DNA of 26,838 bases from a virus. Positions 879 through 22,900 of the stretch are shown piece by piece. Position 1 is the stretch's first letter, and each line of letters begins with the position of its first letter. The stretch is from the IMG/VR virus record IMGVR_UViG_3300020204_000307, positions 1 through 26,838 of that record. One strand, written 5' to 3'. The notes below the pieces were generated by a model. It was not told the origin of the DNA, did no database searches, and saw nothing but the letters and a program-made list of their open reading frames with translations. The translations under genes and the position numbers were made by a program.

Positions 879-880
879 AC

Positions 881-1934: not shown

Positions 1935-1959
1935 CAAAGCATATATACTCTGATAAAAT
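1931..1959 (+). promoter_or_regulatory. Strong sigma70-type promoter (TTGACA-17-TAAAAT)
   Basis: TTGACA (1931-1936), a 17-bp spacer and TAAAAT (1954-1959, one mismatch) with an upstream TGA giving an extended -10 (1951-1953). The -35 contains the stop codon of the oxygenase-like gene. Transcription would start near 1966, leaving a leader of about 18 nt that includes GAAGG (1967-1971) before the glycosyltransferase-like gene. Confidence 0.8.
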
Positions 1960-1983
1960 TGATCTTGAAGGTTTATTTCTCTT

Positions 1984-2915: not shown

Positions 2916-3042
2916 TATGAATAAAGTGGTGTTCGAACCTGGAGCACCTAAGAAGACTCGTCAAGGACGATCTGCAAGAACTCTTCTCTCAGCAACATCT
3001 CGCAATGGGGCTAAGAAAAAATATAGAGGACAAGGTAGATGA
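2899..3042 (+). CDS. Conserved-type 47-aa highly basic cyanophage protein
   Basis: GGAGG (2888-2892) is followed by a 6-nt spacer and the ATG at 2899, a strong ribosome site inside the upstream gene. The product, from MKPKGSMNKVVFEPGAPKK through RQGRSARTLLSATSRNG to KKKYRGQGR, is rich in Arg and Lys with almost no acidic residues. It closely resembles a small basic protein that recurs in T4-like cyanophages; a nucleic-acid-binding role is inferred from charge only. It is the last gene before the intrinsic terminator at 3052. Confidence 0.8.
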   Translation: MKPKGSMNKVVFEPGAPKKTRQGRSARTLLSATSRNGAKKKYRGQGR

Positions 3043-3051
3043 TATAGATAG

Positions 3052-3077
3052 AGCAGGGATTCGTCTCTGCTTTTTTT
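3052..3077 (+). terminator. Intrinsic terminator with TTCG loop
   Basis: AGCAGGGA (3052-3059) and TCTCTGCT (3064-3071) form an 8-bp stem (one G-T pair) closed by a TTCG tetraloop and followed by a run of seven T residues (3071-3077). This is a textbook rho-independent terminator. It separates the left accessory block from the structural cluster. Confidence 0.92.
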
Positions 3078-3085
3078 ATTAACGT

Positions 3086-3796: not shown

Positions 3797-3959
3797 CTTT
3801 ATTAAATCGGGAATGACCCTTATTACTGAAATTTCTTCGGAAAAATACTTAAAAAAATCAAAAAAACTTAAAAATTATGACATTCCAGAGAATCGTTACT
3901 CAAGACCGTGTGGTGGTGCTGGCGGTTTTGACGATTTTGTTGAAAGATGGCATGAATAA
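3765..3959 (+). CDS. 64-aa small protein, function unknown
   Basis: AGGAG (3751-3755) with a 9-nt spacer marks the ATG at 3765, inside the end of the preceding gene. The product begins MAIHPTDKGTDFIKSGMTLI, has a Lys-rich centre (KKSKKLKNYD) and ends in RPCGGAGGFDDFVERWHE. The glycine-rich turn with a terminal aromatic helix looks conserved, but I cannot name a family. It ends 43 nt before gp25, and the late promoter for gp25 lies in that gap. Its position suggests a small virion or assembly factor. Confidence 0.7.
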   Translation: MAIHPTDKGTDFIKSGMTLITEISSEKYLKKSKKLKNYDIPENRYSRPCGGAGGFDDFVERWHE

Positions 3960-3973
3960 TCTTTAAAATCCGT

Positions 3974-3981
3974 CATAAATA
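3974..3981 (+). promoter_or_regulatory. T4-type late promoter CATAAATA before gp25
   Basis: CATAAATA sits in the 43-nt gap before gp25, 21 nt from the ATG, leaving a very short leader. It should drive gp25, gp6 and the giant gene as one late unit, since gp25 and gp6 abut and only 3 nt separate gp6 from the next ATG. Confidence 0.8.
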
Positions 3982-4002
3982 AGACAGATTTATTATTTTT
4001 TC

Positions 4003-4404
4003 ATGCCTTCAGAGCGTGTAAGTAAGGGTTTTAAGGATCTCAGTATGTCATTTCAGATTAGCCCTCTGAATTATGACATACTTGCGATTAAAAATGAAAC
4101 TGCAATCGCTCGCTCAGTGAGAAATCTTGTCACTACTCTTCCTGGAGAGCGATTTTTCAATCAAAACCTTGGTTCAAACGTAACAAAATCACTTTTTGAG
4201 AACATCAATGCTATTTCGGCATCAGTAATTAAGGACGAAATTGAAAATACAATCACAAATTATGAACCAAGAGTTAATTTGATAAGTACTGATGTTTCTC
4301 CAGACTATGATAATAATAGTTTTAACGTAACAGTTAAATATGAAATTGTTGGGATTGACGTATTACCACAACAATTGTCATTTGCATTACAGCAGACACG
4401 ATAA
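4003..4404 (+). CDS. gp25: Baseplate wedge subunit gp25
   Basis: 133 residues, against 132 for T4 gp25. It shows the GPW/gp25 family pattern: ARSVRNLVTT (36-45), PGERFFNQNLGS (47-58), LFEN (64-67) and a YEPRV turn (87-91), followed by two strands (NNSFNVTVKYEIV). In contractile phages gp25 links gp6 to the tail-sheath end of the baseplate wedge and helps trigger sheath contraction. ATG 4003 gives full length; an internal ATG (MSFQISPL, residue 15) is a possible shorter start. No Shine-Dalgarno is seen, but a late promoter lies 21 nt upstream. Its stop is followed directly by the gp6 start, with no spacer. Confidence 0.95.
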   Translation: MPSERVSKGFKDLSMSFQISPLNYDILAIKNETAIARSVRNLVTTLPGERFFNQNLGSNVTKSLFENINAISASVIKDEIENTITNYEPRVNLISTDVSPDYDNNSFNVTVKYEIVGIDVLPQQLSFALQQTR

Positions 4405-6318
4405 ATGGCACTAGTTAACTTTAGCAATCTAGATTTTGATCAAATTAAGAGTTCGCTCAAGGAGTATTTGAGAGCGAACTCTAATTTTACTGACTATGAT
4501 TTTGAAGGATCTAACCTTTCATCAATTATTGATGTATTAGCATATAATACTTACATTACTTCGTACAACGCTAACATGGTTAGTAACGAAGTATTCATTG
4601 ATAGTGCAACTTTAAGAGAAAATGTGGTATCTCTTGCAAGAGCAATAGGATATGTGCCAAAATCAAGACGAGCTGCAGAAGCAAAAGTATCATTTTCAGT
4701 AGATACTACAAATTTACCAACAAACCCAATTTCTTTAACTCTACAAAAGGGAATTGTTTGTACAAGTGCAGTTGCATTTGGAAATGAAAGTTATACTTTT
4801 ACAATTCAGGATTCAATTACAGTTCCTGTAGTTAATGGAATTGCATCCTTTGATAATGTTCAAGTTTTTGAAGGAACTTACGTTACTCAAAACTTTACAG
4901 TTGATGCAAACAACTCGAATCAGCGTTTTATCTTAACAAATTTCAATATTGACACAAATTTAATTCGTGTAGTCGTAAAAAATACTCAAAATAGCACTGT
5001 AACACGTAAATTTACGCTTGCAGAGAACTTAATTGGGATTAATTCTGAATCTAAAGTATTCTTTATTCAAGAAATTGAAGATCAAAGGTATGAATTGATT
5101 TTTGGTGATGATGTTTTTGGCAAGAAACTGGACAATCTTAATTATATTGAAGTTTCTTATGTTATAACGAGCGGAGAAGCAGGAAACCGCGTAAACAGTT
5201 TTAATTATAGTGGAAGATTATTAGATAATAATGAATCTGTTGTTACAGAAGATATTTCTTTAGTTACGACAGATTCTACTTCACAATATGGTGCTGAAAT
5301 TGAATCTGTTAACTCAATTAAAAATTATGCGCCAAGAATATATGCGTCACAAAATCGTGCGGTAACGGCCGCTGACTATGAAGCGATAATCCCAAGCATT
5401 TATTCAGAAGCAGAGTCTATTTCTGTTTTTGGTGGAGAAACTTTAAGTCCACCAAAATATGGTAAAGTCTTTATTTCAATTAAACCTTATAATGGGTCGT
5501 TTGTTCCGAATCCCATCAAAGATAATATCAAAGCAGGTCTAAGAAAATATACAGTTGCTGGAATTGTTCCAGAAATTCTTGATTTAAAATATATTTACGT
5601 CGAATATGATACAACAGCATATTATAACGCAAATACTTCTCCAGGAGCTAGCACAGTAAAATCTATTATTTCATCAAACATTGAAAAATATGCAGATTCT
5701 ATAGAATTAAACAAATATGGTGCAAGATTTAAATACAGTAAATTTCAAAAAATAGTTGACGATAGTCATACATCAATTACCTCAAATATTACAAGAATCG
5801 TGATGCGTCGTGACACAAAAGTTGTTATTAATAAACTTGCGGATTATGAAATTTGTTATGGAAATGAATTTCACGTTAAAGATTTAAAAAATGGATACAA
5901 TATAAAATCTTCAGGATTTACTGTTGATGGAATATCTGAGACATTATACATGTCAGATGTTCCAAACTCTGATGGGAAAACAGGATTGATATTTTTCTTT
6001 AGTTTAAAATCTCCAACAGAACCAATTATAAAAAGAACAAATGTTGGGGTTATTGATTATGTACGTGGAGAAATTAGATTATCTGCTATTAAGTTTACAG
6101 GAACTTCAAAAACTGATGGAGGAATTCCAATTATACAAATTTCGGTAAGTCCTCAATCAAACGATGTCATCGGAAAAGAGGATCTTTATTTGCAACTAGA
6201 TATTAATAACAGTGTGTTGAACATGCAATCGGATGATATCTCATCTGGAGCTAACATCTCAGGTTCAACTTATATCGTGACTTCAAGTTACACAAACGGA
6301 GCCTTTGTAAGATTATAA
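4405..6318 (+). CDS. gp6: Baseplate wedge subunit gp6 (Baseplate_J)
   Basis: 637 residues, against 660 for T4 gp6. The N-terminal stretch from DFEGSNLSSIIDVLAYNTY (32-50) through NEVFIDSATLRENVVSLARA (61-80) and IGYVPKS is the gp6/gpJ signature. YELIFGDDVFGKKL and the SQNRAVTAADYEAIIPSIY region (about 315-333) match the core of the Baseplate_J domain. gp6 dimers form the continuous ring that holds the wedges together around the hub. The gene abuts gp25 without a gap and ends 3 nt before the giant gene, so the three are probably translated from one late transcript. Composition is strongly A/T-rich, like its neighbours. Confidence 0.95.
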   Translation: MALVNFSNLDFDQIKSSLKEYLRANSNFTDYDFEGSNLSSIIDVLAYNTYITSYNANMVSNEVFIDSATLRENVVSLARAIGYVPKSRRAAEAKVSFSVDTTNLPTNPISLTLQKGIVCTSAVAFGNESYTFTIQDSITVPVVNGIASFDNVQVFEGTYVTQNFTVDANNSNQRFILTNFNIDTNLIRVVVKNTQNSTVTRKFTLAENLIGINSESKVFFIQEIEDQRYELIFGDDVFGKKLDNLNYIEVSYVITSGEAGNRVNSFNYSGRLLDNNESVVTEDISLVTTDSTSQYGAEIESVNSIKNYAPRIYASQNRAVTAADYEAIIPSIYSEAESISVFGGETLSPPKYGKVFISIKPYNGSFVPNPIKDNIKAGLRKYTVAGIVPEILDLKYIYVEYDTTAYYNANTSPGASTVKSIISSNIEKYADSIELNKYGARFKYSKFQKIVDDSHTSITSNITRIVMRRDTKVVINKLADYEICYGNEFHVKDLKNGYNIKSSGFTVDGISETLYMSDVPNSDGKTGLIFFFSLKSPTEPIIKRTNVGVIDYVRGEIRLSAIKFTGTSKTDGGIPIIQISVSPQSNDVIGKEDLYLQLDINNSVLNMQSDDISSGANISGSTYIVTSSYTNGAFVRL

Positions 6319-6321: not shown

Positions 6322-9300
6322 ATGTCAGAAGTAAGAGTTAAGATTAGTCAGGTTGTTGAAAGTCAACTTCCAAGATTTATAAAAGAAGAATTCCCTCTTG
6401 TTGTAGAATTTTTAAAACAATATTATCGTTCTTTCGAATTCCAAAGTGGAGCGTCAGATCTTTTACAAAATATTGATCAATATGTCAAAATTGATGAACT
6501 GACAAATCTTACAGAGAGCACAACCCTTACTTCTAGTGTTTTATTTACTGATGATACTATTTCTGTAGACTCTACTTATGGATTTCCAGATTCATATGGT
6601 CTCATCCAAATTGATAATGAAATCATCACTTATACTTCTAAGACTTCAACACAGTTTCGGGGTTGTATAAGAGGATTTAGTGGCGTAACATCTTATGATG
6701 ATCCAGCAACTACAGATCAACTTGTATTTTCTGACTCTGAAATTGCAGAACACACATCAGGATCTATTGTAACTAATTTAAGTATTTTATTCTTAAAAGA
6801 GTTTTTTAATAAAGTTAAAAAGCAAGTTAGCCCAGGATTTGAAAATAGATCATTATACTCTGGATTGAATGACGGTCTTTTTGTTAAGCAATCAAAAGAC
6901 TTCTATTCTTCGAAAGGAACCGACGCTTCTTTTAAGATTTTATTTTCAGCTCTCTACGGAAAAGAAGTCGAAGTTATACGTCCGAGAGACTATTTAATTC
7001 AACCTTCAGATGCTCAATATAGAATCACTAAAGACTTGGTGATTGAAGCGATTGAGGGAGATCCGATAGATCTTCAAAATAAAACTCTATATCAAGATTT
7101 TGATGGATTTTTCAAAAGAGCAGAAGGCACAATATCTAAAGTTGAAAAAATAGTTCGTGGCAATAAAGAATATTATGTATTAAGTCTTGACTATGATTAT
7201 GACAAAGACATCAATGTTTCTGGAACGGTTTTAGGTGAATTTAGTATTCATCCCACAACTCAAACAGTTACCAACACCATAATCAATGCTATAACTTTAG
7301 ATGTTGATTCCACAGTTGGATTTCCTCCTTCTGGTGAATTGATTATAGAATTAATAAATGGAACATCATTGACTGTAACTTATGAAGAAAAATCTTTAAA
7401 TCAATTTTACGGGTGCTCTGGAATTACTCAGGCATTTTCTAGTGGTCAAGTAATTAGAATTAATGCCTTTGCTTATGGGTATGGTGATAAAGCAGCAACT
7501 GAAATTATAAAAGTCAGAGTTAGTGGAGTATTATCGGATCTTGATATTTTAGACAAAACTAGTTTTTATCAAAAAAATGATTTAGTCAAAATAAAGTGTT
7601 TGGGTTCTAATCTAACAGATTATAAGTCAAATAATTGGTTATTTAACGTTTCAACAAGATATGAAGTTAAAACAATTGATCTTATCGATTCTTCAGACTT
7701 CACTTACAGAGTAAGTCTTTATGATGCTCATAATTTTTCTATTGGTAACTCCGTTACATTAATAGGATCTGATAGTCAAGAATTTGTTTCCGTGGTTACA
7801 TCAGAAGAAGCTTCATTAACTGCAGAATCTAGCATAATTTCCTTACAAGATACAACTTCATTTAATATTAGTGGCCAAGGTGAACTAGACACTACAAAAT
7901 TTTATAGTATCAGAAAAAATATTTTAAAAGTAAATTCCTCAAACTATCCAAGTCTTACAAAATATACTGCAAATGTTCAAAACGTATACACGGATTTAAA
8001 ATATTCGTTGTATGTTGCATCACCATCATTACCAAATTATTTAAATCAGTCAGTTAATGTTGTTGATAGATCAATAACTTTTTCTGGAGAATTTTCTGGA
8101 ACAGATTTAGAAATTGGCATTCATAATTTTTATACTGGTGATATAATTGTTTATAATCCAGAAAGCACCACAAATAAATTAAATTTACTTAAAGGAATTT
8201 ATTTTGTAAAAAAAGTAAATGAAACAACCATAAAATTAGCTAGAAGTAAAGAAAATATTTTTACAGAAAACTTTATTTCAGTATCTGGAACTGTAACCAA
8301 TAACAAATTCTATTTGTACAATTTTTCAGATGCTAATCTGAATCTTAATTCAGTTGAAAGTCAAAAACTTATTAGAGAACTTTCTAATCCAGAGAGCACC
8401 ACTGAAACTTATGAGACAATTCCAGGGTCTACTGGTATTTTTATAAGTGGTGTAGAGTTATTAAATTATAAATCCGAAGATCTGGTTTATTATGGTGAAA
8501 TTGAAAATGTCAATGTTCTAAGTCAAGGAAATGGATATGATATAATAAATCCACCAGTGCTGACAATATCTGATGACATTGGCACTGGAGCTTCTGGTTA
8601 TTGCTCTGTCATTGGTGGACTTGAAAGAATTGAAATAGTTGATCCTGGATTTGATTACTTAGATGATCCTGTTATTGCCATTTCTGGTGGAAATGGATCT
8701 GGAGCTTTCGTAAAACCAAATCTTATAGAATTTGATCACCATGCTGAATTTAACTCAACATCTCCAGCTGGGCACGTAAATCTTACGAATAATACTGTTG
8801 GATTTTCGAGTCATCATAAATTTAGAAATGCTGAAAAAGTAATCTATAATTCTCAAAGTGGAGTAGATGTTGGTGGATTATCTAATGGAGCTTTTTATCA
8901 TGTTTCTGTTCAAGATGGATTTACAGTAAAACTTCATAAAACTTTTGATGATGCTGCAGTTGGAATTAACACTGTAGATTTAACATCTTTTGGAACTGGT
9001 ATACACAAATTGTCATCGATAATTAAAAAGAAAAAACTTGGTTCAATATCAGTAATTTCTTCTGGGAGTAATTATCAAAATAAAAAAGTTACAACTACAA
9101 CAGTTGGAGTTAATACTTCTTCAAATATAATCAACATTAAAAATCATGGATTTTTTGATGGCGAATTAGTTTCTTATCAAACAACAGGATCTGTAATTGG
9201 TGGATTGTCAACAACGACAAATTATTATGTAACCAAAGTTTCTGATGAACAATTTAGATTGTCAATTGTTGGAGTTGGAACGGATAATCAAGATTTCTAT

Positions 9301-12300
9301 TACAAAACAAAACAATATATTAATTTAACTTCGACCGGTGGCGGAACACATATATTTAATTATCCAGAAATAAGTCTTACAGTAAAGGATAGAATTGGAG
9401 TTTCTACTTTATCTGGTCAAAGCTTCAGTGCAGTTTTACAACCAATTTTTAGAGGATCAATTGATTCTGTTTTTGTAGAATCTGGTGGAGAAGATTATGG
9501 ATCTGAAGAAATTTTAAATTATAATAGACAACCATCATTTACACTAAACAGTGGCAGTGAAGCTCAGGTTTTGATAGTTGTATTAAATGGAAAAATTACT
9601 GACGCATTGGTCGTTAATGGTGGATCAGGGTATAATGCCCCACCAAACTTAGTTATAAACGGAACTGGTACTGGCGCACAATTAACTCCAATAGTTTCTA
9701 ATGGGTCATTATCAGAAGTAAAAGTTATTTCTGGAGGTAATGGATATTCTTCTTCAACTTTTGTTACTGTAGTGTCTGCAGGATCTGAAGCAAAATTTGA
9801 TGTACAAATTAAATCTTGGAGAGTTAATTTAGTAGAAAGACTCATTGCATCAAATCAAATTTCTGATGATGATGGCGTAATCATTAAATCTTTAGATGAA
9901 AATTTTGGATTGAAATATACTCATGCATATGCTCCAAGAAAATTAAGATCTATAGTTTTAGCAACAAAATTCAAAGATGGAAATGTAATCTTTGTTCCCG
10001 ATTTACAAACATCATCTGGAGTAGAGTCTTTATCCAGTTCACACTCACCAATTATTGGGTGGGCATATGATGGCAACCCAATTTATGGTCCATATGGGTA
10101 TAGCGAACCATCTGGGGGTATTGTAAAATGTTTGGAAACTGGTTATTCACTTTTTCTTAAAACTAACAGGCCTAGCGCGTCATTATATCCTTCTGGATTT
10201 TTTGTTGAAGATTATGAATTTACAAAAACTGGAGATCTTGATGAATACAATGGTAGATTTTGTGTAACTCCAGAATATCCAAATGGTGTATACGCATATT
10301 TCTGTACAATAAATCCAGTTTCTGTAGATAGTGATGGAGCTTTTGAAAATTATTTAAGACCTGTATTTCCATATGCTATTGGAAATGAATATAAATCAAA
10401 ACCAATTAACTTTAATTTTGAAAAAACATCTAATCAAGATGAAATTGATATTAATGAAACTGGATGGTTAAGAAACACAACTCCATATAATATCACAAAA
10501 CAAAGAAGTTACTATGATTATGTAGTTGATCCAAACAAAATTAAAAAACAAACTTCAATTGTAAAAGGAGTAACACAAAGTAGTATAACTTCTATAGGGA
10601 TTGTAACCGGCGGCACTGGTTATCAAGTCAATGATCAATTAGTATTTGATAATGATGGAACTGGTGGATCTGGACTTAATGCAAAAGTTTCTACAGTTAG
10701 TGGTAAACAAGTATCTCAAGTAAGTGTTGCTAACTCAACTGTTTATAATGTGGAGTTTGTTCCACTTGCGAGTGGAGACAAATTTATTGGATTTGCAACA
10801 CAACCACATGCATTCTTAAAAAATGACATCGTTACAGTTTCTTCTTCTTTAGATTATCAAAAGTCTGGATTAATTGGTATTACAACAAATGTTTTAAAAT
10901 TAACAAGTGGAATTGGATCAACAACATCTACAGGTAAAGTAACATACTTTGAAGTTAGTGGGTTACTCAATTATCCTAATATTAAAGAAAATGACATTTA
11001 TCAAATTCGAAATGAACAGGTAAAAGTTTTAAATATTGATACTTTATCTTCTAGAATACGGGTTTTAAGAAATACAAATAATGACGCGGGAATTGGCACT
11101 TATTCTGCTGGCATAGGCTTAACTGAAGTAACTAGAAAATTACAACTCAATTTTGGAATTTCAACATCATACCAATATGACTTGAATAAAGAGTTTTATT
11201 TTGATCCTGGTGAGTCTGTGGGACTTGGAACAACTTCTGGACCAGGAATTGGATATACTTTATCTTTTGCAAACCCAGGAGCAGGAATAACTCAAATCAA
11301 TATTCCAACTAGAGCAATATATCTACCAAATCATCAATTAAAGACTGGAACTCCATTAATTTACAAAACAAATGGAGGAACTCCAGTATCTATTTCTACT
11401 AACGGTATTTCAAGTTTCCAACTTCAAGAAAATTCTGTTGTGTATGCGGCAAAAATTTCAGATGATTTAATTGGTATTTCAACATTTAAAGTTGGTCTTG
11501 GCAGCACGGGATCTTTTGTGGGTGTTGGAAGCACATCTACAAATATTCTTTATTTTACAAGTGTTGGGGTTGGAAATACTCATAGTTTCAAAACAAGTTA
11601 TCAAAATACTTTAACTGCTCAAGTAAGTAGAAACAAAGTCACAGTAGCAACTGCATCATCTCATGGACTAGAAACAAATGATGAAGTTTATGTACAAGTA
11701 AATCCAGGATTGGCAACAACTGTCGTAGTAAAATATGATGATTACAACAGAAGATTGGTTATCAACCCAAGATCATTTATATCTACAAATGTTGATGTTT
11801 TAAATAATACAATTTCAATATCAAATCACAAATATACTACTGGTGAAAAGATTATTCATACTTCAACATCTTCATCTGGTGGTTTATTAAACGAAGCAAT
11901 TTATTATGTCGTCGCTGTTGATGAAAATAAAATTAAATTAACAGAGACATATTATGATGCTATACAACCAATACCAACAGTGGTTGGAATTAGTTCAGCT
12001 TCTTTAGGGACAATATCACAAATTAATCCTCAAATCAATGCCGTCAAGGATTACACTTTAGTATTTGACGTTTCAGATTCTTCTTTATCTTTCTTCAATA
12101 ATTCAGTTCAATATTCTGCATTTGATTTTAATTTTTATACAGATCCTAATTTTAAAAATATTTTTAATTCTACAGAGCAATCACCTTCATTCGAAGTTGT
12201 AAAAACTGGATCAATAGGAGTAACCACAACAGCAACAGTTTCTATAAAAATAAATGATAATCTTCCATCAACATTATATTATTCTTTAGATCCAATTAAT

Positions 12301-15300
12301 TTGAGTATAAATGATGTAACTAAAAAAGAAATTATAATTGACAATGAAATTATTACACATAATCAAATTTTATTAAAAAATAGTGATTATGTTGGAAAAT
12401 TTAATGCAATAAAATCTTCAGAAACTGAATTTGCATATACAATATTAAAAAATCCAGAAGAAAGTCAATATACAACAACTAGCGGACTCTTAGAGTATTA
12501 TACAAATTCTACTACAGCTTATGGTAAAATTAATTCGATCTCTATTACATCAAAGGGTAGAAACTATCAAAAAGTTCCACATATAACAGTTTCATCATCA
12601 TATGGTACAGGATCTGTTTTGATTGCATCCAGTTCTGGAATTGGTTCAATTACTAAAGTTGAAATTGAAGATATTGGATTTGATTATCCATCAGATTTGA
12701 GTTTAAGACCTTCTGCTAAATTGCCAGAGATATTAAAGATTGAGTCTTTATCATCATTTAAATCAATTGGAATTAGTTCTGTTGGTAGAAATTACACTAT
12801 AGCTCCAAATCTTGTGGCAATTGATAGTGTGACTAATGAAGTGATTTCTGATGTTGATTTGACGTACAATGTTGGAGATTCTCAAGTTACAATTTTAAAA
12901 AATACAAAAGGCATTAGTAACGTAACTCCAACTATTATTCCAACTAACAATATCAACGGAGTGGGGATTAGTACAATAACATTCATTCAATCTTCAAAAG
13001 ATGTTGTTGTAACTCTTGGAGCAAGTTTTAGCAATGCTTCAGATTTCCCATTTAATATTGGTGATAAAGTTTTAATTGAGAGCATCAGTGTTGGTGTTGG
13101 ATCTACTGCAAAAGGATATAACTCTGCAAATTACAATTATACTTTATTCACTATTGTAAATACTGATCCAAATATTGGCGGTATTGGAGCTACGGTTTCA
13201 TACAATTTGTCAGATTATTTAAAATCCACAGAAATTCCAGGAACTTATGATCCAGTAAATTCTTATGGTAGAATAATTCCACAGAAACATTTTCCAATTT
13301 TCAATATAGAACTTCAAAAAAATCAGTTCAATATTGGAGAAAATGTTTATTCTGAAACTGCTGCCGGAACTGTTCTTAGTTGGGAAGATGAAAGTAGTTA
13401 TTTAAAAATAGCAACTGAAACTGATTTTTCACCAAATCAAATTGTATTTGGAGAATCCTCTAATTCTCAAGGTAGAGTAGAAGAAGTTGTAAAATATGAT
13501 TCTGTTTATGATGTAAAATCATCTTCGATTGTTAAAAAGGGATGGAATACTGAAACTGGATTCTTGAACAACGCTTTACAAAGAATACATGATAATGACT
13601 ATTATCAGTATTTCTCTTATGCACTCAAATCTGAAGTTTCACTAGATACTTGGAATGACGTTGTTAGTGATTTAAATCACACTTCGGGATTTAAAAAATT
13701 TAGTGATTTGGTATTAGAATCTTCAGCAGACTATACTGGTATTGCAACAAGTCAAGATAATGGAGATTTTGAAGCTGTTGTTGATGTAGATACAGTAATT
13801 GACACAAATTGTATTTTTGATTTTGATTTGGCAAAGGAAAACAATATTATTCTAGATGGAAAAATCAATTCTAATCAGATAACATTTAACTCAAAAATAG
13901 TACAAGACTATATTGAGTCGATTGGAAATAGAGTCTTGATGATTGATGATTTAAGTCCTCAATTTAATAGTTCTCCTAGATCGATAGCGTATAGTGTTGT
14001 TGATACATTCTCTGTCGATGAATTTGATGTAAATGCATATAGATTTAGAAAATATATTGCATTAATAACTGATAAATTTACAATAACAGATCAAGAAGTA
14101 TTACTTGTTTCACTTCTTCATGATAACGCAAATGGATATCTAAATCAATATGGACGTGTAGAAACAATACATGATCTTGGATCATTTGATTTTACAATTT
14201 TAGGTACAGAAGCAAATCTTCTTTTCTATCCAAATTATTTTTCTGTCAATAATTATGATGTAAGTTTAGCATCTTATAATTTAAGAGATATTACAACTGG
14301 AATTGGAACAGTTTCTCTTGGAGATTCTGTAATCATAAAAACATCTACACAAAATGTTTCGGTTGGAACCACAACAGCTTCAACAATTGTTGGAATTGCA
14401 TCTACTTATAGAGCATCCAAACTTCTGATTCAAATTGAAGCATCCGACAAGTCTTATTTTGAAATTGATGAAGTTACTGTAATTCATGATGGAACATCAG
14501 CAACACTGATAGAATACGGTCAAATGACCGCAAATGACCTAACTCCAACTGCTATAAGTGGATTAGGAACTTATAGTGCTTATCTTTCTGGATCCAATTT
14601 AAATATTGATCTCACTCCAAATTCTGGGTTAACAACTAACTACAATATTAATACATTTATAGTTTCGATTGGAAATACTTCATCAACAACTACTGGATCA
14701 CAAACTATCACAGATTCCACTTTAAAATCTACTATAACATCGATTGCATCATCGACAGCACCAACATATAACATTGTATCACAATATCCAAATACTTCGT
14801 TTGGTGCATATTATATTGCTGTTGTTGAAGATAAAACAAATAACCAATATCAGATTTCAGAACTTGTTTCGGTATCAAATAGCGGAAACACCTGTTTAAC
14901 TGAATTTGCAGTTCTCGAAACAGGATCTTCTATTGGATCGTTTACAATTGATAATCCATCTGATGTAAATCTGTATTTTACTCCAATTGCAAATGCAAAT
15001 GTAGAAGTAAGAGTTTATCAACATGCAATTACAAATGTACATGATTCATCGTTAACTCCATCAATTGATTTTATAAATGGATCCATAGAATCTGTTTATG
15101 GTGATTATACTGGTTCTGAAATTGATGTCAAAAAATCTTTCTACTTAACTCACAAAGATAAACCAATCTTTGAAAGATATATTCTTGGTAATGATTCAAA
15201 CATTATTGACATAAGCAATAATAGAATAAAAATTCCAGAGCATTTCTTTGTAACTGGACAAGAATTATCATACGCACACTCTGGAGCTGGCACGACACAA

Positions 15301-18300
15301 GCAGTTGGAATTGCGACTACGACTGTCACTGGAATTGGATCAACTGATAAACTTCCATCGACTTTATATGTTGTTAAGTCAAGTGATCTACACATTCAAG
15401 TTGCTGCTTCGGCATCAGAAGCACTTAGAACTCCACCTTCAGTTTTAACACTTTCAAGTGTTGGCATTGGCACTTCTCATGTTTTAAGAGCCAAAAATCA
15501 AAATTCAAAAGTTATTGTTGGACTCGACAATGTAATTCAATCGCCAATTGTAAGCACTTCTGTTACAACAACTTTGACAAGTAATATTGAAGTAATTACT
15601 AGTTCAATATTTATTTCTGGTATTACCTCATTCTTTGCCGGTGATATTGTAAAGATTGGCAATGAACTTATGAGGATAACTGCAGTTGGATTTGGATCTA
15701 CTAACAGTATTCTCATTGATAGAGGATTGGTGGGAAGTGGAATATCAACACATCCGTCCGGTAGCGTTATCACAAAAGTTCTCGGCAATTTTAATATTGT
15801 AGACAATTATATTAACTTTACAGATGCCCCATATGGTGAAATTCCTTTCCCAAATCCATCGTCAAGACCAGATGAGCAAGATTATACAGGATTGAGCACC
15901 AGTTCAACGTTTAGTGGAAGAGTTTTCTTAAAATCTGGTGATCCAGATTCTCTACAAGAATCTTATCATGACAATTATATTTTTGATGATATATCACATC
16001 AGTTTGATGCAATTACAAAAGATTTTACTATAAGATCTGACTTCCAAAATATCGCTGGGGTATCGACATCAAACGCTATTGTATTAATTAATTCAATATT
16101 CCAACAACCAAGAAGATCTGGGCCTCTTACTATACTCGGAGATTATTACCTGACAGAAAGTTCTGGTATCACATCAATATCATTTACTGGTGCAGCTTCA
16201 TCTATTCAGTATGATGTTAACACTGCATCAATTCCTCGTGGTGGCGTAATCATTTCTGTTGGATCTACTGCTGGATTTGGATATCAACCTCTTGTTTCTG
16301 CAGGAGGAACTGCAATCGTATCCATTGCTGGAACAATCTCCTCAATTAGTATTGGAAATAGTGGATCTGGATATAGAGCAGGAATTCAAACTGTTGTTAA
16401 TGTTGGCGTTCAAACTTCAAGTGTTGGGACACCAAACATTGAGTTTATTGGAACCGCAGCTATTAGTGGCGGTCACATTGTAAGCGTTGCTATCACAAAT
16501 CCTGGAGCAGGATATACATCATCAAATTCACCAATTGTTGTTTTTGATGACCCTCTTTCTTATTCAAATATTCCATTAATTTACAGTTCCTCTTCTAGAC
16601 CTGGATTTGGTACTGAAGCGACAGTGGACATTATTGTCGGCCAAGGATCAAGTATTATTAATTTTGAAATTAAGAACATTGGACACTCTTATGGTCAAGG
16701 AGAAATATTAACTGTTGCAATTGGTGGAGCAACAGGCATACCAACAAATACTTCATTAACGTTTAAAGAGTTCAAAGTTTCTATTGATAAAACTTTCACC
16801 GATAGTTTCTCTGGATGGATAGTTGGTGATTTACAAGTATTTGATTCGATTGATTCCTTGTTTGATGGTGAAAGAAAAAATTTCCCATTAAGCATTGATG
16901 GCGTTCAAACTACAATTCGATCTAGTAAAGGTTCAAACATTGATATTCAAGCGACTCTGTTAGTATTCATAAATGACATTCTTCAAGTTCCTGGAACTGG
17001 ATATGAATTCAATGGTGGAAGTATAATTACATTTCCAGAACCTCCAAAAGTTGAAAGTTCTTCAAAAATAATTTTCTATAAAGGAAATGCTGATGTTGAC
17101 GTTGAGTTTATTGACATTCTTGAGAATGTAAAAATTGGTGACACACTAACGTTACATTCAGATGTTGAAAATTTAACTGAAACTGAAAGGCTAGTTACAG
17201 AAATTAAGTCGTCAGACACAGTTCTAACAAGTCTTTATAATGGTGTTGGAATTTCTGCAGATACAACACTTTTAAGACCAGTTACATTATGTAAGCAAAC
17301 TGAAGACAAAATTATCAATGGTCAAAGAGTTGGAAAAAATAGAGAAAGTTATGAAGCATCAATTCAACCAACAACTAATATTATTCAAAATGTCGGTGTA
17401 ACTTCTACGGTAATATTTGTTGAAAGTGTAAAAACTTTCTTTGATAATGCGAGCGAATATACATCTTCAGAGCAACAACCAAAGAGAATTACAATTACAT
17501 CTCAAGATACCATAGTTGCAGCTGCAGCAACAGCAGTTGTTTCAGTTGCTGGAACAATTAGTTCTATTGTAATTAGTGATGGTGGAGGTGGATATACATC
17601 CACACCATCAGTTACAATTGAATCTCCAGTTGGTCTTGGATCGACTCAGAGAGCGTCTGCAGTCTCTTCCTTGACCGGAGGATCTGTTACATCTATTTCT
17701 GTTACCTCGCCAGGAACAGGATATACTTCATCAAATCCACCTGTTGTTCTGATTGAATTCCCAACTCCAAAAACAGAACAAATCACAAAAGTAAATTACA
17801 GTGGAGATTTTGGAGTTATTACAGGTATTTCTACAACTTCTGTAGGTGTAGCATCCACTGGACTTGTTTTAGATCTGTTCATTCCAACAAACTCATTCTT
17901 AAGAAATACATCAGTGAATAATGTTGGAGTTGCAACAACTGGTGTTAGTGGAATTCAAACTGGATATTACTTTGTTGTGTTTAATTCTAACGTAGGATCT
18001 GCAGTTACTTCCATACGTGAAGATCAAACTATTATTGGATATGGAACTCAATTTATTGATAATATCTATGAGGCTGCTGCGGTTTCTATTGCACAAACAA
18101 GTGTCCCTGGAATTGGAGTTACTTATGTGACAAAAGTTACTGTAAGTCTTCAAAATTACAATGGTATTAGTGGAATTGGGTTTAGTAACTTCTATGGTGA
18201 ATTTAGTTGGGGAAGAATTACAAATCTTACAAGATCTAATCCTGAGTCATTTACAATTTACAACACTGGTTTATCTGGGATTGCTACTTCTCCAACTGTT

Positions 18301-18342
18301 CAAAGAACACAACCACTTAAGTCTCGTAATTACACTACATAA
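6322..18342 (+). CDS. gp7: Giant baseplate wedge protein in the gp7 position, with YHYH domain
   Basis: 4006 residues, nearly four times T4 gp7 (1032). The N-terminal ~260 residues look like the wedge core: FPLVVEFLKQYYRSFE (24-39) and FYSSKGTDASFKILFSALYG (about 194-213) followed by LIQPSDAQYRI, a pattern known from phage gp7-type baseplate proteins. The middle is a mosaic of repeated beta modules. The GxGY module occurs about 15 times (from ~736 to ~3800), and an H-F-tGe...YYV...kL module occurs near 598, 829, 939, 1667, 1833 and 2970. A YHYH domain (about 1240-1345) has SPIIGWAYDGNPIYGPYGY and two Cys. Two paralogous stretches with 'INsiFQqP' and 'INDILQVPGTGY' lie near 3260 and 3550. The C-terminus (FYGEFSWGRI, about 3949-3958, to the end) resembles the ends of other cyanophage structural proteins. 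No frameshift or stop is seen. Position between gp6 and gp8 supports gp7; the arms may add glycan- or surface-contacting functions. Confidence 0.85.
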   Translation: MSEVRVKISQVVESQLPRFIKEEFPLVVEFLKQYYRSFEFQSGASDLLQNIDQYVKIDELTNLTESTTLTSSVLFTDDTISVDSTYGFPDSYGLIQIDNEIITYTSKTSTQFRGCIRGFSGVTSYDDPATTDQLVFSDSEIAEHTSGSIVTNLSILFLKEFFNKVKKQVSPGFENRSLYSGLNDGLFVKQSKDFYSSKGTDASFKILFSALYGKEVEVIRPRDYLIQPSDAQYRITKDLVIEAIEGDPIDLQNKTLYQDFDGFFKRAEGTISKVEKIVRGNKEYYVLSLDYDYDKDINVSGTVLGEFSIHPTTQTVTNTIINAITLDVDSTVGFPPSGELIIELINGTSLTVTYEEKSLNQFYGCSGITQAFSSGQVIRINAFAYGYGDKAATEIIKVRVSGVLSDLDILDKTSFYQKNDLVKIKCLGSNLTDYKSNNWLFNVSTRYEVKTIDLIDSSDFTYRVSLYDAHNFSIGNSVTLIGSDSQEFVSVVTSEEASLTAESSIISLQDTTSFNISGQGELDTTKFYSIRKNILKVNSSNYPSLTKYTANVQNVYTDLKYSLYVASPSLPNYLNQSVNVVDRSITFSGEFSGTDLEIGIHNFYTGDIIVYNPESTTNKLNLLKGIYFVKKVNETTIKLARSKENIFTENFISVSGTVTNNKFYLYNFSDANLNLNSVESQKLIRELSNPESTTETYETIPGSTGIFISGVELLNYKSEDLVYYGEIENVNVLSQGNGYDIINPPVLTISDDIGTGASGYCSVIGGLERIEIVDPGFDYLDDPVIAISGGNGSGAFVKPNLIEFDHHAEFNSTSPAGHVNLTNNTVGFSSHHKFRNAEKVIYNSQSGVDVGGLSNGAFYHVSVQDGFTVKLHKTFDDAAVGINTVDLTSFGTGIHKLSSIIKKKKLGSISVISSGSNYQNKKVTTTTVGVNTSSNIINIKNHGFFDGELVSYQTTGSVIGGLSTTTNYYVTKVSDEQFRLSIVGVGTDNQDFYYKTKQYINLTSTGGGTHIFNYPEISLTVKDRIGVSTLSGQSFSAVLQPIFRGSIDSVFVESGGEDYGSEEILNYNRQPSFTLNSGSEAQVLIVVLNGKITDALVVNGGSGYNAPPNLVINGTGTGAQLTPIVSNGSLSEVKVISGGNGYSSSTFVTVVSAGSEAKFDVQIKSWRVNLVERLIASNQISDDDGVIIKSLDENFGLKYTHAYAPRKLRSIVLATKFKDGNVIFVPDLQTSSGVESLSSSHSPIIGWAYDGNPIYGPYGYSEPSGGIVKCLETGYSLFLKTNRPSASLYPSGFFVEDYEFTKTGDLDEYNGRFCVTPEYPNGVYAYFCTINPVSVDSDGAFENYLRPVFPYAIGNEYKSKPINFNFEKTSNQDEIDINETGWLRNTTPYNITKQRSYYDYVVDPNKIKKQTSIVKGVTQSSITSIGIVTGGTGYQVNDQLVFDNDGTGGSGLNAKVSTVSGKQVSQVSVANSTVYNVEFVPLASGDKFIGFATQPHAFLKNDIVTVSSSLDYQKSGLIGITTNVLKLTSGIGSTTSTGKVTYFEVSGLLNYPNIKENDIYQIRNEQVKVLNIDTLSSRIRVLRNTNNDAGIGTYSAGIGLTEVTRKLQLNFGISTSYQYDLNKEFYFDPGESVGLGTTSGPGIGYTLSFANPGAGITQINIPTRAIYLPNHQLKTGTPLIYKTNGGTPVSISTNGISSFQLQENSVVYAAKISDDLIGISTFKVGLGSTGSFVGVGSTSTNILYFTSVGVGNTHSFKTSYQNTLTAQVSRNKVTVATASSHGLETNDEVYVQVNPGLATTVVVKYDDYNRRLVINPRSFISTNVDVLNNTISISNHKYTTGEKIIHTSTSSSGGLLNEAIYYVVAVDENKIKLTETYYDAIQPIPTVVGISSASLGTISQINPQINAVKDYTLVFDVSDSSLSFFNNSVQYSAFDFNFYTDPNFKNIFNSTEQSPSFEVVKTGSIGVTTTATVSIKINDNLPSTLYYSLDPINLSINDVTKKEIIIDNEIITHNQILLKNSDYVGKFNAIKSSETEFAYTILKNPEESQYTTTSGLLEYYTNSTTAYGKINSISITSKGRNYQKVPHITVSSSYGTGSVLIASSSGIGSITKVEIEDIGFDYPSDLSLRPSAKLPEILKIESLSSFKSIGISSVGRNYTIAPNLVAIDSVTNEVISDVDLTYNVGDSQVTILKNTKGISNVTPTIIPTNNINGVGISTITFIQSSKDVVVTLGASFSNASDFPFNIGDKVLIESISVGVGSTAKGYNSANYNYTLFTIVNTDPNIGGIGATVSYNLSDYLKSTEIPGTYDPVNSYGRIIPQKHFPIFNIELQKNQFNIGENVYSETAAGTVLSWEDESSYLKIATETDFSPNQIVFGESSNSQGRVEEVVKYDSVYDVKSSSIVKKGWNTETGFLNNALQRIHDNDYYQYFSYALKSEVSLDTWNDVVSDLNHTSGFKKFSDLVLESSADYTGIATSQDNGDFEAVVDVDTVIDTNCIFDFDLAKENNIILDGKINSNQITFNSKIVQDYIESIGNRVLMIDDLSPQFNSSPRSIAYSVVDTFSVDEFDVNAYRFRKYIALITDKFTITDQEVLLVSLLHDNANGYLNQYGRVETIHDLGSFDFTILGTEANLLFYPNYFSVNNYDVSLASYNLRDITTGIGTVSLGDSVIIKTSTQNVSVGTTTASTIVGIASTYRASKLLIQIEASDKSYFEIDEVTVIHDGTSATLIEYGQMTANDLTPTAISGLGTYSAYLSGSNLNIDLTPNSGLTTNYNINTFIVSIGNTSSTTTGSQTITDSTLKSTITSIASSTAPTYNIVSQYPNTSFGAYYIAVVEDKTNNQYQISELVSVSNSGNTCLTEFAVLETGSSIGSFTIDNPSDVNLYFTPIANANVEVRVYQHAITNVHDSSLTPSIDFINGSIESVYGDYTGSEIDVKKSFYLTHKDKPIFERYILGNDSNIIDISNNRIKIPEHFFVTGQELSYAHSGAGTTQAVGIATTTVTGIGSTDKLPSTLYVVKSSDLHIQVAASASEALRTPPSVLTLSSVGIGTSHVLRAKNQNSKVIVGLDNVIQSPIVSTSVTTTLTSNIEVITSSIFISGITSFFAGDIVKIGNELMRITAVGFGSTNSILIDRGLVGSGISTHPSGSVITKVLGNFNIVDNYINFTDAPYGEIPFPNPSSRPDEQDYTGLSTSSTFSGRVFLKSGDPDSLQESYHDNYIFDDISHQFDAITKDFTIRSDFQNIAGVSTSNAIVLINSIFQQPRRSGPLTILGDYYLTESSGITSISFTGAASSIQYDVNTASIPRGGVIISVGSTAGFGYQPLVSAGGTAIVSIAGTISSISIGNSGSGYRAGIQTVVNVGVQTSSVGTPNIEFIGTAAISGGHIVSVAITNPGAGYTSSNSPIVVFDDPLSYSNIPLIYSSSSRPGFGTEATVDIIVGQGSSIINFEIKNIGHSYGQGEILTVAIGGATGIPTNTSLTFKEFKVSIDKTFTDSFSGWIVGDLQVFDSIDSLFDGERKNFPLSIDGVQTTIRSSKGSNIDIQATLLVFINDILQVPGTGYEFNGGSIITFPEPPKVESSSKIIFYKGNADVDVEFIDILENVKIGDTLTLHSDVENLTETERLVTEIKSSDTVLTSLYNGVGISADTTLLRPVTLCKQTEDKIINGQRVGKNRESYEASIQPTTNIIQNVGVTSTVIFVESVKTFFDNASEYTSSEQQPKRITITSQDTIVAAAATAVVSVAGTISSIVISDGGGGYTSTPSVTIESPVGLGSTQRASAVSSLTGGSVTSISVTSPGTGYTSSNPPVVLIEFPTPKTEQITKVNYSGDFGVITGISTTSVGVASTGLVLDLFIPTNSFLRNTSVNNVGVATTGVSGIQTGYYFVVFNSNVGSAVTSIREDQTIIGYGTQFIDNIYEAAAVSIAQTSVPGIGVTYVTKVTVSLQNYNGISGIGFSNFYGEFSWGRITNLTRSNPESFTIYNTGLSGIATSPTVQRTQPLKSRNYTT
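8527..17763 (+). repeat. GxGY beta-module family within the giant gene
   Basis: A short module of the form (S/D/N)-x-G-G-x-G-Y-x-x-x-P-x-(V/L)-x-I recurs about 15 times, near residues 736, 774, 913, 1054, 1100, 1137, 1429, 2076, 2117, 2153, 3347, 3393, 3452, 3753 and 3796. Typical examples are GGSGYNAPPNLVI, KGRNYQKVPHITV, PGAGYTSSNSPIVVF and GGGGYTSTPSVTI. Copies often come in pairs 35-45 residues apart with a GtGa linker, suggesting tandem beta-sandwich or beta-helix turns. Divergence at the DNA level is high, so the repeats are old. Confidence 0.8.
10042..10308 (+). other. YHYH domain segment in the giant gene
   Basis: Residues about 1241-1329 contain SPIIGWAYDGNPIYGPYGY, then SGGIVKCLETGY, DLDEYNGRFCVTPEYPNG and VYAYFCTINP. 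The SPIIG-AYDG-PIYGPYGY core is characteristic of the YHYH domain family, found in bacterial secreted proteins and cyanophage virion proteins. The eponymous YHYH stretch reads YAYF here. The function is unknown. Confidence 0.8.
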
Positions 18343-18362: not shown

Positions 18363-19916
18363 ATGTCTGCAATTATAACTGACCAGTTAAGAATTTTGAA
18401 TGCTAAGAATTTTGTCTCTACGGCAACTTCTTCTTCAAATTCTTATTATGTGTTTGTTGGTTTACCCAATGCAACTGATTATAGTTCAACTTGGAATACA
18501 AATCCACCAGCACCTAAAGATAATTTTGATCAGGAGAATGATTATTGGGATACTACAATAGCATTAAAAAAATTAAACTCCAGTGATGTTCAACAAGTAG
18601 TTAGAAAAATTACTTGGACATCTGGAACAACATATGATATGTACCGCCATGATATTAGTGTTACGAATACAGCGAAACCATCTGGTGCAGTAAGTCTATA
18701 CTCTGCAAATTATTATGTTGTAAATAGTGATTACAAAGTTTATATTTGCTTACAAAACGGTACAGATCCTGAAAATCCAGAGGGAACACCATCTCTTGAT
18801 GAACCAACATTTACAGATCTAGAACCAAGGTCTGCTGGTAATAGTGGTGATGGATATATTTGGAAATATCTTTACACTATCAAACCAAGCGATATTGTAA
18901 AATTTGATTCTATTAATTTTATGCCAGTTCCCAAAGATTGGTATACTAATACAACCGATGCCTCTGTTAGAAATAATGCAGCAACTAGTGGACAGTTAAA
19001 AATCGCAACTATTACTAACCGTGGTGTTGGAATTGGAACGGCAAATAAAACTTATACTAGAGTTCCTGTAAAAGGAGATGGTTCTGGAGCTGAAGCAACT
19101 GTTGTTATCAATAATGATTCAAAAGTACAGTCGATTACAATATCCAGAGGTGGATCTGGATACACTTATGGAACTGTTGATTTAGAAGCAGGAAATGTTC
19201 CCACACCAACAACAAATCCTATTTTTAATATTATCATTCCACCCAAAGGTGGTCATGGTGCCGATATCTATAGAGAATTAGGAGCTGACAATGTTCTAAT
19301 ATATTCTCGTATAGAAAATGATAATCAAAATCCAGATTTTATTACGGGAAATGAAATTGCTAGAGTTGGTATTGTAGAAAATCCACAAGCATACGCTTCA
19401 ACATCACTTTTAGATTTACCAAAAGCAAGTTCTGTTTACGCTTTAAAGTTAACTGGTGCTGGATATAGTTCTGCTACTTTTACTGCAGATAGTAGAGTTA
19501 TCCAAACTGTTGGAGTTGGTTCAACAGCAGTTGGAAGAGTAATTTCATATGATCAGGCAACAGGAGTTCTCAAGTATTGGCAGGACAGAAGTCTTGTTGG
19601 ATTTAACTCAGATGGAACTCAAAACACTTCTCCAGTTTATGGATTTAAACTGAACAGATTTACATCTAATCCTGGAGTAGGTGGAACAACTGTTATTGTT
19701 GGTGGAAGTGTAAGTCTTTCCATTGATACAAACTTCACAGGTCTGTCAACCACAATAAATAGTAAGACATATTATCTTGGACAATCTTTTACAAACGGCG
19801 AGTCCGATCCAGAAGTTAAAAAGTATTCTGGAAACATTATTTACGTTGATAACAGACCATCAATTACAAGATCGTCTAATCAAAAAGAAGATATTAAGGT
19901 AATTTTGCAATTCTAA
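18363..19916 (+). CDS. gp8: Baseplate wedge subunit gp8
   Basis: 517 residues, longer than T4 gp8 (334). The N-terminal ~200 residues carry the family pattern: SAIITDQLRILNAKNFV (2-18), SYYVFVGLPN (28-37), an NDYWDTTIALKKLN region, ARKITW-like RKITW with MYRHDI, YYVVNSDYKVYICLQN, and GYIWKYLYTIKPSDIVKF. gp8 dimers bridge gp7 and gp10 in T4 wedges. The extra length lies mainly in the second half, which includes GGSGYTYGTVDLEAG near residue 263 and a second AGYSSATF near 364, the same GxGY module seen in the giant protein. The start is supported by a late promoter 17 nt upstream. The next gene follows after 6 nt. Confidence 0.93.
   Translation: MSAIITDQLRILNAKNFVSTATSSSNSYYVFVGLPNATDYSSTWNTNPPAPKDNFDQENDYWDTTIALKKLNSSDVQQVVRKITWTSGTTYDMYRHDISVTNTAKPSGAVSLYSANYYVVNSDYKVYICLQNGTDPENPEGTPSLDEPTFTDLEPRSAGNSGDGYIWKYLYTIKPSDIVKFDSINFMPVPKDWYTNTTDASVRNNAATSGQLKIATITNRGVGIGTANKTYTRVPVKGDGSGAEATVVINNDSKVQSITISRGGSGYTYGTVDLEAGNVPTPTTNPIFNIIIPPKGGHGADIYRELGADNVLIYSRIENDNQNPDFITGNEIARVGIVENPQAYASTSLLDLPKASSVYALKLTGAGYSSATFTADSRVIQTVGVGSTAVGRVISYDQATGVLKYWQDRSLVGFNSDGTQNTSPVYGFKLNRFTSNPGVGGTTVIVGGSVSLSIDTNFTGLSTTINSKTYYLGQSFTNGESDPEVKKYSGNIIYVDNRPSITRSSNQKEDIKVILQF
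19754..19761 (+). promoter_or_regulatory. Possible internal late motif AATAAATA in gp8
   Basis: AATAAATA occurs in the 3' part of gp8, 161 nt before the next gene start. It fits the NATAAATA pattern and could add transcription of the DUF4815 gene, but A/T-rich coding sequence yields such octamers by chance. Confidence 0.2.
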
Positions 19917-19922: not shown

Positions 19923-22900
19923 ATGCCCCAGCAAACTAATCTCAACGTTTCTCCATATTTTGATGACTTTAATGCGGACAAAAATTACTATAAGGTACTA
20001 TTTAAACCAGGATATCCTGTTCAAGCTAGAGAATTAACAACATTACAGTCAATTTTACAGAATCAAATTGAACAACAGGGTAACTTCAACTTCAAAGAAG
20101 GTTCTATTGTAATTCCAGGGCAAATTAATTACAATAATAGATTTAATGCTGTAAAAATTGAAAATTCATATTTGGGTGTAAATGTTGGATTATATGTAAA
20201 TGACTTAGTTGGAAAAATAATCAAAGGAGATACTTCAAAGGTTGAGGCTAAAATTGCATATGTTTTAAGTGAAAATGAAGTTGGTAATGAATATACAACT
20301 TTGTACGTAGCATATTTGGCTTCTGGTGTAAATAATGATCAATCAACTTTTTCAGACCAAGAAAAATTAGTTCTTGAGGAATCTTTTACTAAAGATAATA
20401 TTATTATCCAAGCAGGAGAAGGATTTGCAAATACAACAACAGATTCAACAGCAGTGGGATCTGCTGTTATTTTATCTTCTGGAGTTTATTTTCTAAGAGG
20501 AACTTTTGTAAACGTTGAGGATCAAATCTTAGTTCTTGATCCATATTCAAATACATCATCATACAAAGTTGGACTTGATGTTATTGAAGAAATTGTAACA
20601 TCAGATGATGATGATTCATTAAATGATAATGCACAAGGATTTTCAAACTATGCAGCTCCAGGTGCTGACAGATTTAAAATTACAGCAATTTTAAGTAAAA
20701 GAGATATTACCACAACAAATACTGAAAATTTTGTAGGTCTTTTAGAAATTAGAAATGGAGATTTAATTAAAAATTCTGCTACAAATCCAACTTTAAATAT
20801 TTTAGCAACAGAATTAGCTAGAAGAACTTCAGAGGAATCTGGTGATTATTATACAAAACCACTTGATGTTTCATCCAAAGAAACATTGAATAACAAACTG
20901 GGTAATGATGGCATTTTTAATGAGAATCAATTAACTTATGATAATAATACCCCAAGAGAAGATTTGGGAACGTATAGAATTTCTCCAGGAAAAGCATATA
21001 TTCAAGGATATGAAGTTGAAAATATTTCCGCAACATATGTTGATTTTGAAAAACCAAGAACAACTAACACAAACACGGATGTTAATCTTACATATTTAAC
21101 TGGACCAACTTTTACTTTAAATAGAGTTGCAGGATCTCCAAATTTAAATCTTGCAAATCCTTTTATTGTAAGTTTAAGAAACTCTAGGGTAGGAATTTCT
21201 TCAACAACAGGAGCAGGAAAAGAAATTGGTCTTGCCAGAGTATATGATTTTGCTTTAGAGTCTGGATCTTACGATACTTCAAATCAAAATTTAAATCAAT
21301 GGGACCTTGCGTTATTTGATATTGATACTTATACTGAAATTTTATTAAATCAAAACACTACACTAACAGTTCCAACTCATATTAAAGGAAAATCCAGTGG
21401 GGCTACCGCACACTTAAGATATGATGTTGACAACGCGGGAATTTTAACTGCATATGGAGTTCAGGGATCATTTGTTTCTGGTGAAAAATTCATCTTTAAT
21501 GGTGTAGAAACAACGAGTAGAGTATCAACTGCTGCCACTGCATATACTACAAAAGATGTTTTATCAGTCTCCCAATATATAACTGGAGTTGGAGCCACTA
21601 TCTTTACGGCAGATGTAATTCCATCAACTCAATATTTTGTTGGATTATCTTCAATTACTGCAAGATCTGCAGCAGGAATTAGTAGCATTTCAATTTCCTC
21701 TGATACTAATTTTATATTTACAAACAATGTAAAACAAGGAGGACTGGTAGCATTTACAGTATCTGGATCAACAGTTCCAACATTTTGTAGTGTAGAATCA
21801 GTTTCTGATAGATCAATTACAGTAACTGGTGTCACAACTGTAACTGGAATATGTGAAGGGACTCCACCTGCAGCAGCTCAAACTTTATCAGATTTAAAAA
21901 TCTTAGGATCAAATTTTCAATCATCCGCAGATAATACTTTATATACATTCTTCAGAAAACCATTTGTAAAGTCTGTAGATCTTACTGATTCTTCTTTAAC
22001 CATCAAAAAAGAATTTGCAGTTACTATTACAAGTGGACAATCAAATACCTTAACTGCTTCGTCAAATGAATTTTTCTTACCGTTTGATGAAGAAAGATAT
22101 GTTTTAGTTCGTTCTGACGGATCTTTTGAATCTTTAAGTGCTGATAAACTTGTATTTGATGAGCAAGCAAAACAACTCACAATTTACGGTTTAGGTGCAA
22201 ATGATACTGGTGCAAGATTGATTGCCACTTTAAGAAAAACAAATGTAACGTCTAAAGTTAAGAATAAAAATAGAATTGTATCCTTAATTGTAGACAAATC
22301 AAAATACAGTTCTTCTGGTATTGGATCCACAACAATCAACGATGGATTAACTTATGGTTCTTATGCATATGGAACTAGAGTTCAAGATAATGAGGTTTCT
22401 TTGAACAGAGCTGATGTTACAAAAATATATGGCATCTTTGAATCTAGTGGAACTTCTGCTGCTGCGTTACCAAAAATAACTTTTAGTAGTTTGGATGGCC
22501 CAACAAATAAAACTACAGATTTACTGATTGGTGAGCAATTTATTGGTCAAACTAGTGGAGCAGTTGGAGTATACGTTACGAGAAATAATGATCTCCAAAT
22601 TGATTTTATCTATCTCAACGATATTGCATTTTTAGAAACAGAAAATGTTAAGTTCAGTGATTCTGGAATAACATCCGTTATTTCGGCAGTTTCACTTTCT
22701 GATAAAGATGTCACTGACAGTTATACTTTAGATGCTGCTAGAAAAGATACTATTCTTGACTATGCAAAAATAGTCAAGAAACCAAATGTAAAGGAACCAG
22801 TAAGACAACTCAAAATTATTTTTGAGGCAGCAAGTTTCTTACCTTCTGATTCTGGTGATATTACCACTGTAGATTCTTATAGTCAATTTGATTATGGAAA

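Follow-up and report, generated by a model that had tools for sequence, protein, structure and literature searches.

Among T4-like phages, gp7 is very divergent (PMC3037559). Its minimal form in Vibrio phage XM1 (242 aa) carries the core-bundle helices at its N-terminus and binds the tail spikes through an internal loop (residues 80-106) and its C-terminus (PMC10457771). In cyano- and pelagimyophages, gp7 has been described as absent and replaced by VrlC, with YHYH proteins listed as unidentified (PMC7029224), and many giant relatives of the protein described here are already annotated as 'baseplate wedge initiator gp7'. Proteins from this slot have been detected in virions. In S-CREM2, the gp7-slot protein, its slot being assigned from gene order, was represented by 91 unique peptides (27% coverage), compared with 113 for the gp6-slot and 55 for the gp8-slot protein (PMC10665884). 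The S-SCSM1 study detected 45 proteins by MS, and the 4120-aa homologue in that phage is annotated as a virion protein. During a host coexistence experiment with S-PM2, the 'exceptionally large' S-PM2d081 (3048 aa) acquired changes early on, as did gp8 and a virulence-associated (VrlC-type) protein (PMC9910659). The gp7-slot protein S-PM2p084 has a gp7-type N-terminus and a length of exactly 3048 aa; from this identical length and from its position, we infer that it is the same protein as S-PM2d081.

We analysed a viral DNA stretch of 26,838 nucleotides (IMG/VR virus record IMGVR_UViG_3300020204_000307), referred to in its entirety as the window. One giant gp7-type baseplate wedge protein of 4006 aa, assigned by its ORF, family match and alignments, is encoded at 6322..18342 on the + strand, as are all gp7 features and wedge genes given below. 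The initial annotation had reported a 12-kb frame without a stop, and this was confirmed: the ORF runs from ATG to stop through 4006 codons with no internal stop. The product has a predicted mass of 433 kDa, is acidic and is rich in Ser, Thr and Gly. It is 3.9 times as long as T4 gp7 (4006/1032), as had been estimated, and the six-copy mass calculation also stands, giving 2.6 MDa in total or ~1.9 MDa above six copies of T4 gp7. A chance or frameshifted ORF was ruled out, because Bellamy gp7 (gp111) aligns with the window protein end to end at 45.5% identity and because dN/dS against the close relatives L011 and L009 is 0.07-0.21 in every 250-residue section.

The gene is part of a wedge operon with the order gp25-gp6-gp7-gp8-VrlC, in which the gp6-gp7-gp8 run is the same as in T4. 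Upstream are gp25, the sheath initiator / wedge protein (4003..4404; PF04965, 52 bits), and gp6, to which gp7 binds in the core bundle (4405..6318; PDB T4-type gp6, E 6e-30 to 1e-32). Downstream are the wedge protein gp8 (18363..19916; PDB T4 gp8, E 3.5e-7; PHROG_438) and a VrlC / DUF4815 virion protein (19923..26837; DUF4815, 207 bits), incomplete at the window end. The position that marks a T4-type gp7, between gp6 and gp8 with gp25 in the operon, is therefore present. The window gp8 has 517 aa vs 334 in T4 and bears one GxGY module resembling those of gp7, and the VrlC after it has a solved relative, PDB 9euf 'ORF65' (E 7e-42). Further 5' of gp25, a 236-aa ORF at 3086-3796 matches a ferredoxin PHROG and a 255-aa ORF at 1984-2751 shows weak glycosyltransferase similarity; in relatives, the slot 5' of gp25 is occupied by different metabolic genes (purM, CP12, tryptophan halogenase).

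Family searches placed the protein in PHROG_2885, 'baseplate wedge subunit' (4179 positions), with E = 0 and 3664 bits over two stretches, the best covering 1-3370. The three nearest IMG/VR relatives are 4007, 4007 and 4012 aa long at 79-83% identity, and the full-length relatives (n = 44) span 3680-4307 aa. We extracted 45 closed long frames from IMG/VR, and those above 3500 aa all fall within 3680-4255. Annotated Kyanoviridae homologues are mostly 3048-6076 aa: Bellamy 4067, S-SM2 4156, S-SCSM1 4120, P-TIM68 4307, ACG-2014f 4225, S-CAM9 3884, P-HM2 4454, S-RSM4 3515, P-SSM2 5195, S-PM2 3048 and Syn9 6076. The unusual size highlighted at the outset is thus no novelty, since close relatives share it and Syn9 goes well past it; given the narrow range above 3500 aa and the 4007-4012 aa of the nearest three, the window protein is a further member of a known giant gp7 family and its size is ordinary for the clade. 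Megablast of the window against phages gave no match, so there is no close isolate among the phages searched. PHROGs divide the giant gp7 orthologues between 'tail' and 'head and packaging' families; the S-PM2 orthologue (L121:2573-11719, S-PM2p084) sits in PHROG_4406, 'head and packaging, virion structural protein', where it is apparently misfiled.

Homology to T4 gp7 is confined to a short segment near the N-terminus. Profile-profile comparison by hhalign matched residues 184-309 (6871..7248) to T4 gp7 724-822 with a probability of 97 and E 1e-10, and single-sequence BLASTP matched residues 186-218 to T4 gp7 726-758 at 54.5% identity (E 3e-5). A 40-sequence N-terminal profile searched against 177,635 PDB sequences returned two matches only, both T4-type gp7 (E 2.5e-6). 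Comparison of the entire chain, in overlapping 700-residue blocks, with T4 gp6, gp7, gp8, gp9, gp10, gp11 and gp12 gave a single match above 20% probability, the core at 184-309; the T4 gp7 N-terminal domains (1 to ~640) matched no block. The gp7 identity proposed initially is upheld by this core homology together with synteny. The accompanying statement that the wedge signature comprises an N-terminal region and a C-terminal tail held in its first part, the core being confined to 184-309; the 'tail' proved to be a conserved block of ~600-700 residues common to PHROG_2885. A fusion with gp10, gp11 or gp12 was ruled out, since no block gave a profile match to them and the window contains no NDGTGD motif. 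This gp9/gp10 N-terminal motif has a lone near-match within the gp7 ORF, which lacks the final acidic codon.

These matches bear on the published view (PMC7029224), under which a tail fibre or adhesin gene would have moved into the gp7 slot after gp7 was lost and replaced by VrlC. The many beta modules and the YHYH domain do resemble surface proteins, but the N-terminus has specific gp7 core homology, the gp6 partner adjoins the gene, and VrlC matches DUF4815/ORF65 rather than gp7; we consider such a replacement very improbable. At least in cyanophages, and in disagreement with PMC7029224, our data place the gp7 core in the YHYH protein itself.

The core is N-terminal in the window protein, whereas in T4 it lies near the C-terminus after several hundred residues, so it is not a T4 gp7 enlarged fourfold. 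The chain consists instead of a minimal wedge core within the N-terminal ~310 residues followed by a C-terminal extension of ~3700 residues, for which no counterpart among T4 gp6-gp12 is detectable. XM1 gp17 is likewise too short to hold the T4-specific N-terminal domains; gp7 proteins in the broader sense are not defined by these. In an AlphaFold2 model, residues 8-54 (6343..6483) form N-terminal helices, the putative equivalent of the helix-turn-helix that gp7 contributes to the (gp6)2-gp7 core bundle, at low local confidence (pLDDT mostly 40-60); they are positioned as in the XM1 minimal gp7 (PMC10457771), and a colinear match to T4 645-671 there is weak and not significant. Helices at 153-167 and 184-212 were predicted at low to moderate confidence, after which the chain is beta-rich. 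A first FPxG beta module (residues 67-123; 6520..6690; profile search and AlphaFold2) is inserted in this N-terminal domain. The extra domains of the window protein, namely the 67-123 module and the C-terminal extension, fall at the two spike-attachment positions of XM1.

Profile searches along the chain found 11 GxGY modules (~32 residues), six HG-YYV, three FPxG and two INGIxQ modules, plus one YHYH domain; shuffled control sequences gave no module matches. Recognisable modules account for ~1100 of the 4006 residues, or ~27% of the chain, far from the >3500 residues of module arrays first claimed. A second FPxG module (residues 313-369; 7258..7428) is followed by a region with three HG-YYV (601-652, 832-886, 942-982) and two GxGY modules (725-758, 765-796) at 8122..9267, where shuffled controls were empty. 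Alignments then define a conserved block at residues 1056-1485 (9487..10776), which contains GxGY modules at 1090-1120, 1128-1155 and 1421-1451 and the YHYH domain PF14240 (residues 1238-1331; 10033..10314; Pfam 85.5 bits, cut-off 25) with the motif HSPI-G-AYDGNPIYGPYG. Two further HG-YYV modules lie at 1671-1724 and 1836-1886 (11332..11979), and residues ~1801-2000 (11722..12321) form a variable block in which no column reaches 95% conservation. GxGY modules at 2068-2099 and 2145-2172 accompany a conserved block at 2089-2474 (12523..13743), and an HG-YYV module (2974-3040) precedes the third FPxG copy (3083-3142) at 15241..15747. The conserved C-terminal block (15967..17421) carries the INGIxQ modules (3216-3299, 3502-3586) and GxGY modules at 3337-3368 and 3384-3417, and the last GxGY pair lies at 3744-3775 and 3787-3817 (17551..17772).

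Beyond the N-terminus, conservation across 45 full-length sequences is densest in the YHYH block and at 3300-3600. By motif or alignment, the YHYH block is present in 13/13 cyanophage isolates examined and missing from the Methylophilales phage Melnitz; its invariance suggests a specific binding or assembly site. The distant S-PM2 and Syn9 proteins share with the window protein approximately the blocks 1-480, 677-796 and 1056-1485 as well as parts of 2089-2474, and block 3489-3649 is found in Syn9. Six relatives of 3680-3689 aa lack some 325 residues in the region of 1801-2000, a cassette-like gain or loss.

Structure prediction by segment, proposed initially as a check, was applied to both ends of the protein. 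The AlphaFold2 model of residues 1-1190 was moderate (pLDDT 75), and its top PDB match in Foldseek was 5iv5 chain BJ (T4 baseplate, 1004 residues; E 2.8e-3), which by its size we take to be gp7; the match is supportive only. The model of residues 2905-4006 was poor (pLDDT 63.5) and gave no usable fold. Fold searches with both models returned no firm match for the extension, and searching BFVD yielded mostly relatives plus long-range noise. Matches of the C-terminal model to rotavirus VP5 and integrin folds are not believed, that model being too weak, and pyruvate kinase, the sole whole-protein sequence match among solved structures (E 0.13), is meaningless. Neither a solved structure for any giant protein of this type nor data on cleavage of one was found.

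In several relatives the gene is naturally split. In L086 the split falls at residues 2477-2527 with a short gap (13750..13902; L086:14286-14310), giving products of 2615 and ~1720 aa. In Synechococcus phage B23 it falls at residues 2910-2919 with an ATGA overlap (15049..15078; L004:26538-26541), giving 2845 and 1081 aa. In S-SSM7 it falls near residue 3125, with a gp10-like gene between the halves of 3007 and 3001 aa (L006:27009-28075). Stop codons just upstream of the second start in B23 argue against a simple frameshift artefact. These natural fissions show that the gp7 chain need not be continuous and that its C-terminal part can be a separate polypeptide. That B23, L086 and S-SSM7 encode the same sequence as two genes could also indicate a precursor that is cleaved post-translationally, yielding a gp7-like wedge fragment and distinct arm or fibre fragments. 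However, the split points differ (~2500, ~2915, ~3125), so that the fissions look independent, placed at module joints and unlike one conserved cleavage site; moreover, no protease was seen in the operon, and most relatives keep a single frame. We therefore regard processing of a precursor as unlikely.

A gene with the NDGTGD motif of the T4 gp9/gp10 N-terminus lies between gp7 and gp8 in P-TIM68, S-SSM7, S-SCSM1, Syn9 and Melnitz (L005:28948-31392, L006:27039-28061, L007:21084-21863, L091:10018-11238, L094:9328-10212) and is missing from other relatives and from the window. No relation between this neighbour and gp7 length was evident among the relatives.

Purifying selection acts over the whole length of gp7, and the N-terminus has some of the lowest dN/dS values in the comparison with L011 and L009. 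No fast-evolving receptor-binding tip was seen in dN/dS along the whole protein, and because the ratio is low everywhere, the sequence does not favour a direct role in receptor binding. Synonymous divergence from L011 is 0.3-0.4 at 13822-15321 (residues ~2501-3000) vs 0.55-1.1 elsewhere, a drop suggestive of intragenic recombination.

Taken together, we favour, with a probability of roughly three in four, the reading that a T4-type (Kyanoviridae) myovirus here encodes its gp7 orthologue, in the giant form normal for that family, whose N-terminus docks on gp6 and whose remainder makes an outer arm. The N-terminal helices would link a pair of gp6 chains within the core bundle, and each wedge would contain one copy of the protein, making six in the virion, a number taken from T4/XM1. 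The beta-rich chain of GxGY, HG-YYV, FPxG and INGIxQ modules and the invariant YHYH block would run outward as a peripheral baseplate arm, which may hold or form host-contact parts and pass the binding signal to the wedge; in T4 this job falls to gp7's own N-terminal domains together with gp10/gp11. The 'large external arms' envisaged initially are thus reasonably inferred. Since the gene splits in relatives, the arm may be composed of units able to assemble without being one chain. Most of the extension is dispensable for a working wedge, because Melnitz manages with 896 aa and S-CREM2 with 1937 aa in this slot (coordinates in PMC10665884).

The extension might alternatively serve mainly as a structural spacer or skirt that widens and stiffens the baseplate, leaving host contact to VrlC, gp10-like and short tail fibre proteins, a reading that differs from the outer-arm reading only in the arm's job. 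The uniformly low dN/dS and the repetitive beta modules fit such a role, and the mosaic gp10-like gene beside gp7 in several relatives could carry fibres. Against it, the S-PM2 counterpart gained amino-acid changes during host coexistence (PMC9910659), and the invariant YHYH block speaks for a more specific function; we see a spacer as a real but doubtful possibility. Within the preferred outer-arm reading, a broader proposal can be put forward tentatively, at somewhat less than even confidence: gp7 of marine cyanophages may have become an all-in-one wedge and arm that, together with VrlC/DUF4815, replaces T4 gp10, gp11 and short-fibre attachment, split in some lineages at module joints with the subunits reassembling.

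The gp7 core is now placed precisely within the giant protein, in conflict with PMC7029224 and with the PHROG 'head and packaging' labels. The ocean harbours T4-like cyanophages in abundance, and we found in the literature no structure of their baseplate periphery and no cryo-EM structure of a cyanomyovirus (T4-like) baseplate. The module map, the invariant YHYH block and the natural split points allow the arm to be divided into parts for structural work and binding assays, and PDB 9euf could, via VrlC, give a structural frame for the periphery.

Among described systems, the PHROG_2885 proteins (S-SM2 gp7, Bellamy gp111, P-TIM68, S-SCSM1, B23) share the length class and slot of the window protein, those of S-SCSM1 and Bellamy being 40-46% identical to it end to end. 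The B23 counterpart is split whereas the window gp7 is one chain, and the P-SSM2 protein (5195 aa) has large insertions that the window protein lacks. Syn9 gp101 (6076 aa) and S-PM2p084 (3048 aa) share the N-terminal core (E 1e-95 and 1e-110), the YHYH block, the GxGY modules and the gp7 slot, but their module arrays between conserved blocks differ, and Syn9 gp101 has ~510 residues inserted near residue 110. XM1 gp17, compared from its paper rather than by alignment, has N-terminal core-bundle helices that we liken to those of the window protein, but no giant extension. T4 gp7 (PHROG_964; PDB 5iv5, 5hx2) has a homologous core and the same 6-7-8 gene order; the T4 and window proteins thus share a short core, with additional domains particular to each lineage.
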